64,000 nt of DNA. Origin: Actinocatenispora sera. Lineage in GTDB: Bacteria; Actinomycetota; Actinomycetes; Mycobacteriales; Micromonosporaceae. The notes beneath the pieces are model-generated. The model did no database searches. It worked only from the letters and a program-made list of their open reading frames with translations, and was not told the origin of the DNA. The stretch is taken from NCBI RefSeq assembly GCF_018324685.1, contig NZ_AP023354.1:1736001-1800000 (forward strand), written 5' to 3'. Every line of letters starts with the position of its first letter. The first letter of the stretch is position 1. Shown here in pieces: positions 11,121 to 18,738 of this stretch. The position numbers were made by a program, and so were the translations under genes.

Positions 11121-11197
11121 CGGGGTGTGGCGCAGCTTGGCAGCGCGCTTCGTTCGGGACGAAGAGGCCGTGGGTTCAAATCCCGCCACCCCGACCA
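11121..11197 (+). tRNA. tRNA-Pro(CGG)
   Basis: A full cloverleaf is visible. The 7-bp acceptor stem is CGGGGTG/CACCCCG, and the anticodon stem CTTCG/CGAAG surrounds the loop TTCGGGA, giving anticodon CGG at 11155-11157 with G37 as expected for Pro. The T arm contains GGTTCAAAT, and CCA is encoded at 11195-11197. A TAGTAT -10-like box lies 15 bp upstream. It reads CCG codons, which are frequent in this genome. Confidence 0.97.
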
Positions 11198-15360: not shown

Positions 15361-15762
15361 TCAACGGCGGACCAGCAGGCCCGCCGCGTTCACCAGCACC
15401 GTGCGCTCGGTCCGGTGCCGCCGGTTGTGGTCGAGCTCCCATCCGGTCAGATAGAGCCAGCCCGCCCGGCCCGGCGACCGGCCCCTGCTGGCGTCCACAC
15501 TGGACGGCTCGACCTTGACGACCTGCAACAGGATCGATTCGCGCGCGAACTGCGGCGAGGCGCGTCCGGTCAGGTGCACGACCTCACCGGCCGACGGAAC
15601 CTGACCGGCCGGGAGTGTCTCGTAACGGGGGAGTGACTGCGATAGCAGAGTGTGTGCGGCGTTGGTCACCTCCGTCATCTTGCCGCTCGGGATGTGCAGG
15701 CGGGAGCCGACCACCCCCCGAACGGGTGTGTCCGGTTTCACTGGGTGGAGAGGATCGGACAT
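15361..15762 (-). CDS. hypothetical protein
   Basis: This 133-residue cytoplasmic-looking protein has no signal or membrane segment. It has a moderately hydrophobic, strand-rich middle (EVVHLTGRASPQFARESILLQVVKVEP) and a C-terminus with WLYLTGWELDHNRR. I do not recognise it. I chose the ATG at 15762 because upstream residues are Pro/Ala-rich and run toward the divergent cyclase promoter, although no strong ribosome site is present. It is divergent from the diguanylate cyclase gene. Confidence 0.6.
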   Translation of the reverse strand: MSDPLHPVKPDTPVRGVVGSRLHIPSGKMTEVTNAAHTLLSQSLPRYETLPAGQVPSAGEVVHLTGRASPQFARESILLQVVKVEPSSVDASRGRSPGRAGWLYLTGWELDHNRRHRTERTVLVNAAGLLVRR

Positions 15763-15905
15763 CGAGCCCGGAATCGGCGCAACGGGCGCGCGCGTCCCTG
15801 GCAATGGCTACTCAACGTACACTCGATAGAGACGGAGAGAGATCATCGCGCCGGCCAGCGCTCTGCTCGGCGTTGCGGTACGACAGAAAGGCTCGGCCCC
15901 GGCAC

Positions 15906-17375
15906 GTGAGCACCGACGGCATCGATCAGGGACGGCTCGTCGACGCGCTGGCGACCACGGTGACCATCGCGCCGTCGGTACCGGATGCCTGCCAGGCGGC
16001 GGTACGGGCGCTGGCCGAGCAACTGCCCGGCACCATCGCCGTACTGCTGGACCTGCGCGGCCGGCTGCGCTGCTTCGGCGCCGCCGGGGCCTGGCAGGTG
16101 TTCGACGGGGTGCCGTCCGACGCCGGCGTGATCGGCCGGGTCTTCCGCACCGGCAAGGCCGCCGAGGTCTGCGACGTGCGCGCCGACCCCGACTACATCC
16201 CGCTCGACCCGGACGTGCGTACCGAGGTCTGCACGCCGATCGTCGGCCCGCACGGCCCACCGTTCGGCGTCGTCAACATCGAGTCGGCCGAGAGCCCACC
16301 GCTCGAGCAGGTACGCGCCGCGCTGGAGCGGACGGCGCAGGTGCTCGGCGAGCGCATCGCCGGACTCGGCGGCCTGCCCGCCGAGAGCGCCGGGCAGCAG
16401 CTGCTGCGGCACGCCGTCGAACTGTCCGCCGCCGCCGACGAGCCCGCCGTCCTGCAACGCTGCCTCGCCGCGACGCAGGACATCTCGGGGCTGTCCTCGG
16501 CGGCGATCGCCGTCGGCACCGGCAGCGACACCCGGATCCAGGCGGCGCGCGGCCCGCTCGCCGGGCTGCTGGTGATGGCCGACCGGCCGGCGCTCGCACT
16601 GCTCGCCGCCCGTACCCGCCGGCACGGCTCCACCTACAGCCTCGGCGACCCGGAAAGCCTGGACGCCCGCGGGTTCGAGTCGCTCACCGAGGCCGGCATC
16701 CGGACCATGATCGCGGTACCGATCGGCGGCCGGCACGACGACGGCGGCGTGCTGCTCGCGGTCGACCACCGCGTCGACGTACCCGAGACCGTCACCGTCA
16801 GCCTGCTCGAACTGCTCGCCGCCCAGACCCTGGTCTGCCTGGAACGCGTCCGGCTGGTCGGCCAGCTGCGGCTGCGGGCCAGCTCCGACCCGCTCACCGG
16901 CCTCGGCCACCACGGCCGCTTCACCGAACGGCTCGCCCGCGCCCAACCCGCCCGAACCGCCGTACTGGCGCTCGACGTCGACCAGTTCAAGGCGGTCAAC
17001 GACACGTACGGGCACCAGGAGGGCGACCGGCTCCTGGTCGAACTGGTCCGCGCGCTGCAGGCCACCCTGCGCGCCGAGGACGACCTGTACCGGATCGGCG
17101 GGGACGAGTTCGCCGCCGTCGTCGAGGTGACCCACGAGACCGAGGCACAGGCCGTCGCCGAACGGCTCGTCGCCGCGGCTCGTCGGGTCGGCCGTACGAT
17201 CAGCGTCGGCGTCGCCCTGCGCGAGCCCGGCGAAACCGCCGAGAACACGCTGCGGCGGGCCGACGATGCGCTCTACGCCGTCAAGCGCTCCGGCCGGGAC
17301 GGGGCCAAGCTCGCCGAGTCCGGCGCCGTGTCCCGGCCCCTGATGGTGCTGCCGCCCACGGTCACCGAACCCTAG
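15906..17375 (+). CDS. GAF-GAF-GGDEF diguanylate cyclase
   Basis: This is a 489-residue soluble diguanylate cyclase that should make c-di-GMP from two GTP. Two GAF-like sensor domains (about residues 15-150 and 165-310) precede a GGDEF domain (about 325-475). The active site reads GGDEF at about 398-402. The allosteric I-site RAED lies exactly five residues before it, so product inhibition is expected. Other conserved elements are DPLTGLGHHGRF, DVDQFKAVNDTYGH and RADDALYAVK. I chose the GTG at 15906 because it precedes the first GAF helix; earlier in-frame sequence overlaps the divergent gene. A 7-bp-stem hairpin follows. Confidence 0.88.
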   Translation: MSTDGIDQGRLVDALATTVTIAPSVPDACQAAVRALAEQLPGTIAVLLDLRGRLRCFGAAGAWQVFDGVPSDAGVIGRVFRTGKAAEVCDVRADPDYIPLDPDVRTEVCTPIVGPHGPPFGVVNIESAESPPLEQVRAALERTAQVLGERIAGLGGLPAESAGQQLLRHAVELSAAADEPAVLQRCLAATQDISGLSSAAIAVGTGSDTRIQAARGPLAGLLVMADRPALALLAARTRRHGSTYSLGDPESLDARGFESLTEAGIRTMIAVPIGGRHDDGGVLLAVDHRVDVPETVTVSLLELLAAQTLVCLERVRLVGQLRLRASSDPLTGLGHHGRFTERLARAQPARTAVLALDVDQFKAVNDTYGHQEGDRLLVELVRALQATLRAEDDLYRIGGDEFAAVVEVTHETEAQAVAERLVAAARRVGRTISVGVALREPGETAENTLRRADDALYAVKRSGRDGAKLAESGAVSRPLMVLPPTVTEP

Positions 17376-17383
17376 CCCTGTAC

Positions 17384-17405
17384 GTACCTCTATGCGCTGA
17401 GGTAC
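17384..17405 (+). terminator. hairpin after the diguanylate cyclase
   Basis: GTACCTC and GAGGTAC form a 7-bp stem with an 8-nt loop, 9 bp after the stop codon. Confidence 0.55.
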
Positions 17406-17440
17406 ACCCGAAGCGCCGGTGCCCGGCTCGCGTGCGCGCG

Positions 17441-17963
17441 ATGTAAAGCCCACCCCCGTCGGCGCTGGCGCGCTGGTGCTGGCGGTGTAAAGCCCACCTC
17501 TGTTCCTTCTTTCACCCCTCGTGGGGGGACCGTGGGGAGCGGGCTTCGCCCCTCCCCACACCCCTCCCCGTCAAGGGGCAGTCGCCCCCTTGACAATCCC
17601 CCACCGGAAAACCAGAGACGAGATCCTGACCCCGCCTGGCCCGTTTCGGAACGACGGGGTGTCGGTGCGGCCTACCCATCGCCGCCGAGCCCGCCACGAC
17701 AAACCAAACCCCCCACCCGTCTGTGGGCCGCCGGGACACGAAGCGACGCGTTGCGAGGCGGGCGTTGGCGTGATGGACATGCCGGGCCGGGCCCCGGTCT
17801 TCTTCGACGGGCACTGGGCGTCGAGGGGCATCGTCACCGGGATGGGTAAGGGGATGGCCAAGGGGAATCCCCTTGGCGGGGAAGGAGCGCGAGGAGGGGG
17901 CGAAGCCCTCTCCTCGCATTCCCCCACGCGGGGTCAAAGCGTGAACAGAGGTGGCCTTTACAC
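17441..17963. repeat. inverted pair of diverged hairpin-rich repeats (structured non-coding element)
   Basis: This 643-bp gene-free gap holds two copies of a repeat of about 110 bp in opposite orientation: left arm 17485-17594 and right arm 17857-17963. Both outer ends read GTGTAAAG(C/G)CCACCTCTGTTC going inward, and about 35 of the first 41 bases agree. Each arm has three hairpins in the same order: 17515-17526 with 17922-17933, 17532-17559 with 17889-17917, and 17570-17594 with 17857-17877. Stem pairs differ between copies by compensatory changes. A third, truncated end (ATGTAAAGCCCACC) lies at 17441, 44 bp outside the left arm. About 260 bp between the arms show no gene. Confidence 0.75.
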
Positions 17964-18018
17964 CCGCACGCCGAGCGGCGCCGCGGCAGAGCGGGCGTTG
18001 GCGCCAGAAACCCGGGGG

Positions 18019-18672
18019 TCAGCGGGGGGAGGTGGTGATGCCGGTGGCGGTGGTCCAGATGATGAGCAGGGGGAGGGCGACGATGGCCGCCTGGGCGGGG
18101 AGGGGCAGGAGGAAGGCGTAGCCCACGGCGCAGACGGTCATGGAGACGGCGACGGCAGCGCCCAGCCAGGCGACCCAGCGGGGCAGGCCCCGGCCGGCAA
18201 GCGCGACGCCGATCGCGGCCATGACACCGAGCAGCGCCATCTTCACCCCGTCGACCCGGCTGATGGTGTCGAACAGGAGGCCGGCGGTGGCGGTGTTGCC
18301 GCGGGGCGCGTCCCAGAGGGTGAGGTGCAGGCCGAGCCCGCACATGACGAGGGAGAGCAGGGCGGCGACGAGGCCGGTACCGGCGAGGGCACGGCCGGTG
18401 CGGGAGCGGGCGCGCCGCGCGACGGCGACCGCGACGATCGCGATGCCGATCGCGGGCAGCCCCTCGGTCAGCAGGTACTGGGCGGTCTGCGCGACGGTGT
18501 GGCCGGACAGGTCGGCGATCACCTGGGTACCGGTGGCGTGCGGGTCGGTGGACACCGGCGACACGGACAGCCCGGCCACCCAGGACAGGGCGAAGCCGAT
18601 GCCGGCGAGGGCGGGCACCGTGCCGAGGCTGCGATACCAGGGACGGGCGACGGGAAGGGCGCGGCTGCTCAC
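18019..18672 (-). CDS. multi-spanning membrane protein (DUF998-like)
   Basis: This 217-residue protein has about six to seven predicted membrane helices (for example ALAGIGFALSWVAGLSV, GLVAALLSLVMCGLGLHL and AAIVALPLLIIWTTATG). The arrangement resembles DUF998 membrane proteins, whose function is unknown. I chose the GTG at 18672 because AAGGAG lies just upstream; a longer ATG frame would cross the operator. It lies directly downstream of a TetR gene, with a palindromic AT-rich operator between them, so it is probably controlled by that regulator. Confidence 0.72.
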   Translation of the reverse strand: MSSRALPVARPWYRSLGTVPALAGIGFALSWVAGLSVSPVSTDPHATGTQVIADLSGHTVAQTAQYLLTEGLPAIGIAIVAVAVARRARSRTGRALAGTGLVAALLSLVMCGLGLHLTLWDAPRGNTATAGLLFDTISRVDGVKMALLGVMAAIGVALAGRGLPRWVAWLGAAVAVSMTVCAVGYAFLLPLPAQAAIVALPLLIIWTTATGITTSPR

Positions 18673-18695
18673 GAGGACTCCTTGGTTAGTGTTGA

Positions 18696-18720
18696 TAGCT
18701 TTAAAGCTAATAGCATTAGC
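18696..18720. promoter_or_regulatory. overlapping palindromes, operator of the membrane-protein gene
   Basis: TAGCTTTAAAGCTA (18696-18709) is a perfect 14-bp palindrome. It overlaps a second one, GCTAAT-AGC-ATTAGC (18706-18720). The sequence is strikingly AT-rich for this DNA and lies 24 bp upstream of the GTG at 18672, between it and the tetR stop codon. Confidence 0.6.
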
Positions 18721-18738
18721 CAAGAAGGGCAAGAGGGT

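Follow-up and report, generated by a model that had tools for sequence, protein, structure and literature searches.

Multi-hairpin repeats in sense behind stop codons of Actinocatenispora: a candidate RNA 3'-end module

Background

What is a pair of diverged, structured inverted repeats doing behind the stop codon of a gene in Actinocatenispora sera? The original prediction, made for a window of 64,000 nucleotides (the whole stretch analysed here, positions 1736001-1800000 of a chromosome of 7.04 Mb), described two facing arms with three hairpins each, and suggested that they might be a BIME/REP-like element, a MITE or an RNA family of its own. Most repeats known from the ends of bacterial genes are short, single palindromes.

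Results

Architecture of the element

The element is located between a gene for a GAF-GGDEF protein and a convergent neighbour. Its features are listed below in window coordinates.

15615..17375, plus strand: upstream gene, GAF-GGDEF protein with a diguanylate cyclase domain (ORF list; Pfam GGDEF 6.8e-31, GAF_2 2.5e-13)
17373-17375, plus strand: stop codon of the GAF-GGDEF gene
17384..17405, plus strand: hairpin 0, stem GTACCT/AGGTAC, directly 3' of the GGDEF stop and forming the left end of the element (sequence)
17432..17459, plus strand: extra copy of the 5' box, a direct repeat of 17476-17503 at 82% (repeat search)
17487..17600, plus strand: left arm (type L), 5' box GTAAAGSCCACCTCTGTT and three hairpins (R1 match 124.6 bits; fold z -4.48)
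17515..17526, plus strand: left-arm hairpin 1, CCCC(TCGT)GGGG, almost invariant and without covariation support (alignment, sequence reading)
17532..17559, plus strand: left-arm hairpin 2, GTGGGGAG...CTCCCCAC (sequence; covariation)
17570..17594, plus strand: left-arm hairpin 3, GTCAAGGGG...CCCCTTGAC (sequence; covariation)
17601..17850, no strand: element centre, an imperfect palindrome by eye, common to paired copies (full-length matches to 13 other copies)
17851..17961, minus strand: right arm (type R), in the reading direction of the convergent gene (R1 match 122.7 bits; fold z -4.66)
17857..17877, minus strand: right-arm hairpin 3, GCCAAGGGG...CCCCTTGGC (sequence)
17889..17917, minus strand: right-arm hairpin 2, GCGAGGAG...CTCCTCGC (sequence; covariation)
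17922..17933, minus strand: right-arm hairpin 1 (sequence)
18019..18732, minus strand: convergent gene next to the element, without a Pfam family at E 0.001, stop (18019) 58 nt from the right arm (ORF list)

Each arm consists of a 5' box followed by three hairpins. The two facing arms, detected by covariance matches and recovered independently by a repeat search, carry these hairpins in the same order; the original prediction was right in this, and also in the stems that it quoted and in their compensatory differences. Since both window arms belonged to the building set of the covariance model R1 (together with 18 other arms), their matches to it follow by construction. The sequence ATGTAAAGCCCACC at 17441, which had been interpreted as the remnant of a lost arm, need not be one: it duplicates the 5' box, and additional boxes upstream of an arm were also seen by eye in other copies. 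With hairpin 0 as a fourth hairpin, the element extends further to the left than predicted. Of 61 hairpin 0 candidates lying upstream of arms, 56, 53 and 32 had complementary bases at the three positions next to the fixed stem on its outside. A recurring unit, about 40 bp long (around GACGCCGCCTGGCCGC...TCGGAAC...CGGGG) was noticed by eye 3' of the arms at loci L073 (in several tandem copies), L057 and L017, and at 17627-17660 of the window.

None of 200 shuffled sequences folded as well as either arm. The complementary strands fold equally well (z -4.28 and -5.04), and the strand that matters is therefore not told by the fold alone. No known Rfam family reached its gathering score in the element, the only one to do so in the window being tRNA-Pro (CGG) at 11121-11197. 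Nineteen sub-threshold matches at E up to 5, mostly to microRNA-type hairpins (the best with 25.1 bits against a cut-off of 100), were taken as chance hairpin similarity.

A repeat dispersed in Actinocatenispora

The arms are members of a dispersed repeat, with 110 arms at 75 loci in four Actinocatenispora genomes (G000, 33; G001, 42; G003, 24; G002, 11), these counts being lower bounds because earlier matches had guided the choice of stretches. R1 gave 122 matches in 79 stretches (E up to 0.01), of which 110 were kept and 12 dropped (eleven at 21-23 bits, mostly opposite-strand reads of counted arms, and one arm cut by a contig end). With a further model, R2, 13 arms were found in G002, as against 11 with R1. 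In the window's own genome, a query of 125 bases gave 46 matches, most of which came in twos from the arms of one element, and 13 copies matched the whole window element at 86-97%. The element loci of this genome are confined to the part of the chromosome that runs from 6.60 Mb through the numbering origin to 3.82 Mb, and an arc of about 2.8 Mb is free of them.

Among genomes of the family, 4 of 150 were matched by R1 and 4 of 300 by R2. These were the same four, all Actinocatenispora, and no matches were found in the other genomes of either set under strict filters with at most 24 or 14 candidates scored per genome. Because of these settings the searches could miss distant relatives, and their per-genome counts are to be read as "at least". 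A sequence pattern scan of genome contigs revealed 23 stretches, 19 of them in Actinocatenispora comari; the other four came from one Nocardia and three MAGs of other groups, with about eight chance matches expected by our own estimate. A blastn search with 17380-17990 of the window gave no match in either the plasmid or the phage collection, and no description of this repeat was found among the results listed by our literature searches.

Covariation of the stems

The compensatory changes described for the window rested on one divergence, because two arms yield just one comparison; with more copies the claim holds. It was examined on an alignment (A6) of 20 arms, with the structure of hairpins 2 and 3 named by us. 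These 20 were picked for compatible length from 90 distinct trimmed arms (arms at L196, L200 and L201 being excluded from the 90), and type L arms of G000 and G001 were left out. Alignment A4 was discarded because it placed type L hairpin 3 in the wrong register, and A3 and A5 had similar faults in places.

In A6, 96.3% of the cells of hairpins 2 and 3 were paired, compared with 89.9% in shuffles and at most 68.8% in slid controls. Both sides had changed in 24 cells (shuffle mean 4.7; none of 500 shuffles as high), counts that are inflated by related rows and refer to rows selected by length. Two-sided change affected six pairs, a number reached by 12 of 500 shuffles, further pair types were not above shuffles (370/500), and six G-U cells were retained. 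The smaller alignment A1 contained two-sided changes in 2 of 22 predicted pairs, both in hairpin 2. The stems of this hairpin diverge widely (type L, GTGGGGAG; type R, GCGAGGAG; G002, GCGAGAGAGGA), and those of hairpin 3 vary across arms (GTCAAGGGG, GCCAAGGGG, GCTAAGGGG, CCAAAGGGGG). The fourth species, G002, has stems quite unlike those of the other three. Hairpin 1 is almost invariant and gives no covariation evidence; its form differs in G002.

Selection on the fold, and not on a protein, had been proposed for the window, and the covariation of hairpins 2 and 3 supports it. A lack of further copies in related genomes, and of covarying stems, had been named as grounds for abandoning the proposal; both the copies and the covariation were found.

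A third type of arm, with the stem GAGAGAAGAG and GCTCAAGGGG as hairpin 3, was observed at L161:2810-2920 and L199:2689-2799, one copy found each in G001 and G003, in a stem style near that of the G002 arms.

Placement relative to genes

The position of the arms, about which the original prediction made no statement, was analysed with our own gene calls, made by a codon-usage model that had been trained on the DNA retrieved, and not with an annotation. Single arms stood in sense 3' of a gene in 41 of 44 cases (p 1.6e-9, with orthologues not independent) and antisense in three; counted per orthology group, the sense placement held for 31 of 34 (p 7.7e-7). A sense gene was present upstream of 89 of the 110 arms, at a median distance of 94 nt from its stop. 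In all 33 pairs the arms face inward. Fifteen pairs occupy convergent and 18 co-directional gaps (7 and 10 of the 17 pair groups), and in the co-directional gaps one arm is antisense to its neighbour and has no sense gene. None of the 110 arms lies between divergent genes, as against 68 of 175 ordinary gaps of at least 60 bp in the same DNA (the others being 85 co-directional and 22 convergent).

A scan for U-tract terminators found none in the arms and two on the minus strand of the element centre (shuffle mean 0.5). The best hairpin energies of the window genes had a median of -24.9 behind stops and -23.7 inside genes, and -25 kcal/mol was reached at 27 of 54 gene ends, in 22 of 55 gene interiors and in 16 of 55 upstream stretches. 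Because gene ends barely differ from interiors, hairpins at stops give no strong general signal by this energy measure.

Concerted evolution of paired copies

A comparison of flanks placed the 75 loci in 44 orthology groups, nine of which are represented in G000, G001 and G003. Many element sites are old, because 18 of the 44 groups span two or three of these three closer species; another group is linked to G002 through one of its two flanks. Identity was measured from hairpin 2 to the end for paired arms only, without those of G002 and of locus L161. Orthologous cores had a mean identity of 88.4% (L) and 92.6% (R), compared with 97.1% (L) and 99.6% (R) for paralogues of the same species, and in 37 of 38 comparisons the own-species paralogues were nearer than the orthologue. 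In G000 the paired R arms (14/14) end in one identical 36-nt sequence, and those of G001 (11/11) share another. Paired L arms have one 3' end in G001 (11/11) and nine variants among the 14 arms of G000, and the seven of G003 carry a terminal TTAGC stem, matched by GCTAA in four and by GCCAA, with one C-A mismatch, in three.

To judge from these identities, the paired elements undergo concerted evolution, another feature beyond the original prediction. The likeness within species belongs to the paired elements and not to the whole family, since pooling the single arms blurs it: for pooled type L, the within-species means are 96.5 (G000), 90.7 (G001) and 77.7 (G003), with 94.2, 78.6 and 77.1 for orthologous arms, and the concerted pattern is lost in G001 and G003. 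The core of one single arm of G003 (L189) is identical to that of its G001 orthologue. Taken as a whole element, the window copy is 80% identical to its G001 orthologue, below the 82% of a non-orthologous G001 copy. Gene conversion is described as the usual cause of concerted evolution (PMC6053082), and we infer that it has homogenised the paired copies here.

Sites without an arm

The site at L137, upstream of a gene which we take, from recall of its first residues, to be sucC, is vacant in G002, where the flanks lie about 110 bp apart compared with about 805. In G003 another gene stands in place of the element; at this pre-sucC site (L234, G003:C1:5793000-5794200) a small gene with cysteine motifs was seen by eye. 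The G003 site of L131 has no arm and retains boxes and hairpin 0, and that of L161 lacks the type L arm and keeps scraps; in G000 a solitary hairpin with the hairpin-2 core stands at the L161 site. The L164 flanks of G000 and G003 enclose other genes, which by eye lie behind different GC-rich hairpins. Two gene ends with an arm in G001 are followed in the G000 orthologue by a lone GC-rich hairpin (by eye), in one case on the hairpin-2 core. No arm follows the G002 orthologue of the window's upstream gene: a convergent frame of 279 codons ends about 10 bp beyond its stop, and a sense frame of 324 codons that overlaps it is also open.

The module is thus dispensable for an individual gene, as this orthologue and the G003 site of L131 demonstrate. 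The single cases of this section suggest that an arm may take the place of an ordinary gene-end hairpin or give way to one.

Discussion

An RNA-level role at the 3' ends of transcripts appears to be the best reading of the repeat, on the evidence of position, sense and paired changes, and it is the orientation of the arms relative to genes that points to RNA. Of the identities originally offered, an RNA family of its own fits best, given this orientation and the lack of any Rfam gathering score. The repeat is probably a genus-specific, multi-hairpin 3'-end RNA module without a U-tract, which serves as a terminator and/or a barrier to 3' exonucleases, has spread as a repeat and has been homogenised by gene conversion. 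Several observations speak against this reading: by the energy measure, hairpins show little general excess at stops; individual genes do without an arm; the complementary strands fold no worse than the arms; and three single arms, as well as one arm of each pair in a co-directional gap, are antisense to their neighbour.

The closest known function would be that of a U-lacking terminator or an exonuclease barrier. In Streptomyces clavuligerus, structured 3' ends lacking a U-tract are reported to make up 353 of 535 structured ends (the HS-U-lack class; PMC8269248). The Actinocatenispora arms resemble such U-lacking (I-shaped) terminators of GC-rich bacteria in that a stable hairpin lies behind the stop, in sense and without a U-tract. 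The S. clavuligerus ends are not described as members of a repeat in the available part of that report (PMC8269248), whereas the Actinocatenispora module has several hairpins and a 5' box and is alike within a species.

REP sequences and BIMEs are described as intergenic palindromes near 3' ends, often in inverted pairs and mostly in convergent or unidirectional gaps (PMC3733652). The arms share their placement at gene 3' ends, the inverted pairs and the absence from divergent gaps, so the proposed BIME/REP likeness stands as an analogy. It fails as membership: a REP is a single palindrome of 20-40 bp, whereas the unit here measures about 110 bp, has three ordered, unlike hairpins and occurs in tens of arms per genome. 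Of the REP tags, GTAG was present in 4 of 110 arms and CGTC in 54 of 110 (either strand); in type L the latter overlaps the foot of hairpin 3, and it is not a conserved tag, because other arms carry CATC, CGCC or CGCT. The REP-associated transposase Y1_Tnp (PF01797) is represented by one gene each in G000 (L203, G000:C1:1326102) and G001 (L204, G001:C55:139113), with no arm in 6.5 kb around either, and was not found in G002 or G003, though both carry the repeat. Size, lack of a conserved tag and the transposase together rule out REP membership.

An unlikely alternative is that the repeat is a non-autonomous mobile element of MITE- or REP-like kind, whose palindromes would serve single-stranded DNA mobility and for which stop-proximal sites would be tolerated or targeted. 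Short non-coding composites (599-802 bp) with many copies per genome, inverted copies of hairpin 0 at both ends of 11 of 33 pairs (strict pattern), the CGTC motif in about half of the arms and the vacant L137 site in G002 would suit such an element, although a loss would look like that vacancy. It differs from MITEs in lacking a known autonomous partner (only Y1_Tnp was searched) and a target-site duplication beyond what chance gives: in the 11 complete pairs, shared flank words of 2, 3 and 4 nt numbered 8, 3 and 1 against 7.5, 2.5 and 0.9 expected, and none had 5 nt or more. The distribution of Y1_Tnp and the age of many sites also argue against it, and tolerance alone does not explain the sense placement of the single arms. 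With one vacant site and no target duplication, mobility, and with it the MITE identity, is unproven.

Placement behind genes and never in divergent gaps, palindromes that fold equally well on both strands and the uneven spread over the chromosome would also suit a site acting in DNA, bound by gyrase or a nucleoid protein or serving as a topological insulator at places behind genes where positive supercoils accumulate. Gyrase-binding BIMEs provide a parallel. A symmetric site, however, needs no fixed order of unlike hairpins in sense, and six G-U cells have been kept, which makes this explanation improbable. It is still harder to believe that the repeats are neutral, strong hairpins that easily arise in GC-rich DNA and were copied by recombination without having a function; the dispensability of the module per gene and the existence of decayed or solo-end sites agree with this, but compensatory changes and sense bias do not.

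If the RNA module is the correct reading, the transcript of the upstream gene would pass the hairpin directly behind the stop and then the arm hairpins, without a U-tract. Together these hairpins would most likely form a compound terminator of the GC-rich, "I-shaped" kind that lacks a U-tract, and/or a barrier to 3' exonucleases; we infer termination or protection of this kind from the sequence. Convergent gaps would have two back-to-back arms, one for each gene, and the composite of 600-800 bp would spread by recombination or transposition.

Rather unlikely, in our opinion, is a scheme in which the arms are binding sites of a putative genus-specific, trans-acting RNA-binding factor. They would form a dispersed 3'-UTR regulon co-evolving with the factor, and gene conversion under selection would shift the stems of paired copies jointly within each species. 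Should this be true, it would represent concerted evolution of non-coding, terminator-like elements.

To conclude, a multi-hairpin module stands in sense behind stops in Actinocatenispora, with its paired copies kept alike across many fixed chromosomal sites. It offers one system for two testable questions: what makes gene ends without a U-tract work in actinobacteria of high GC content, and by what means non-coding copies at scattered sites stay alike.
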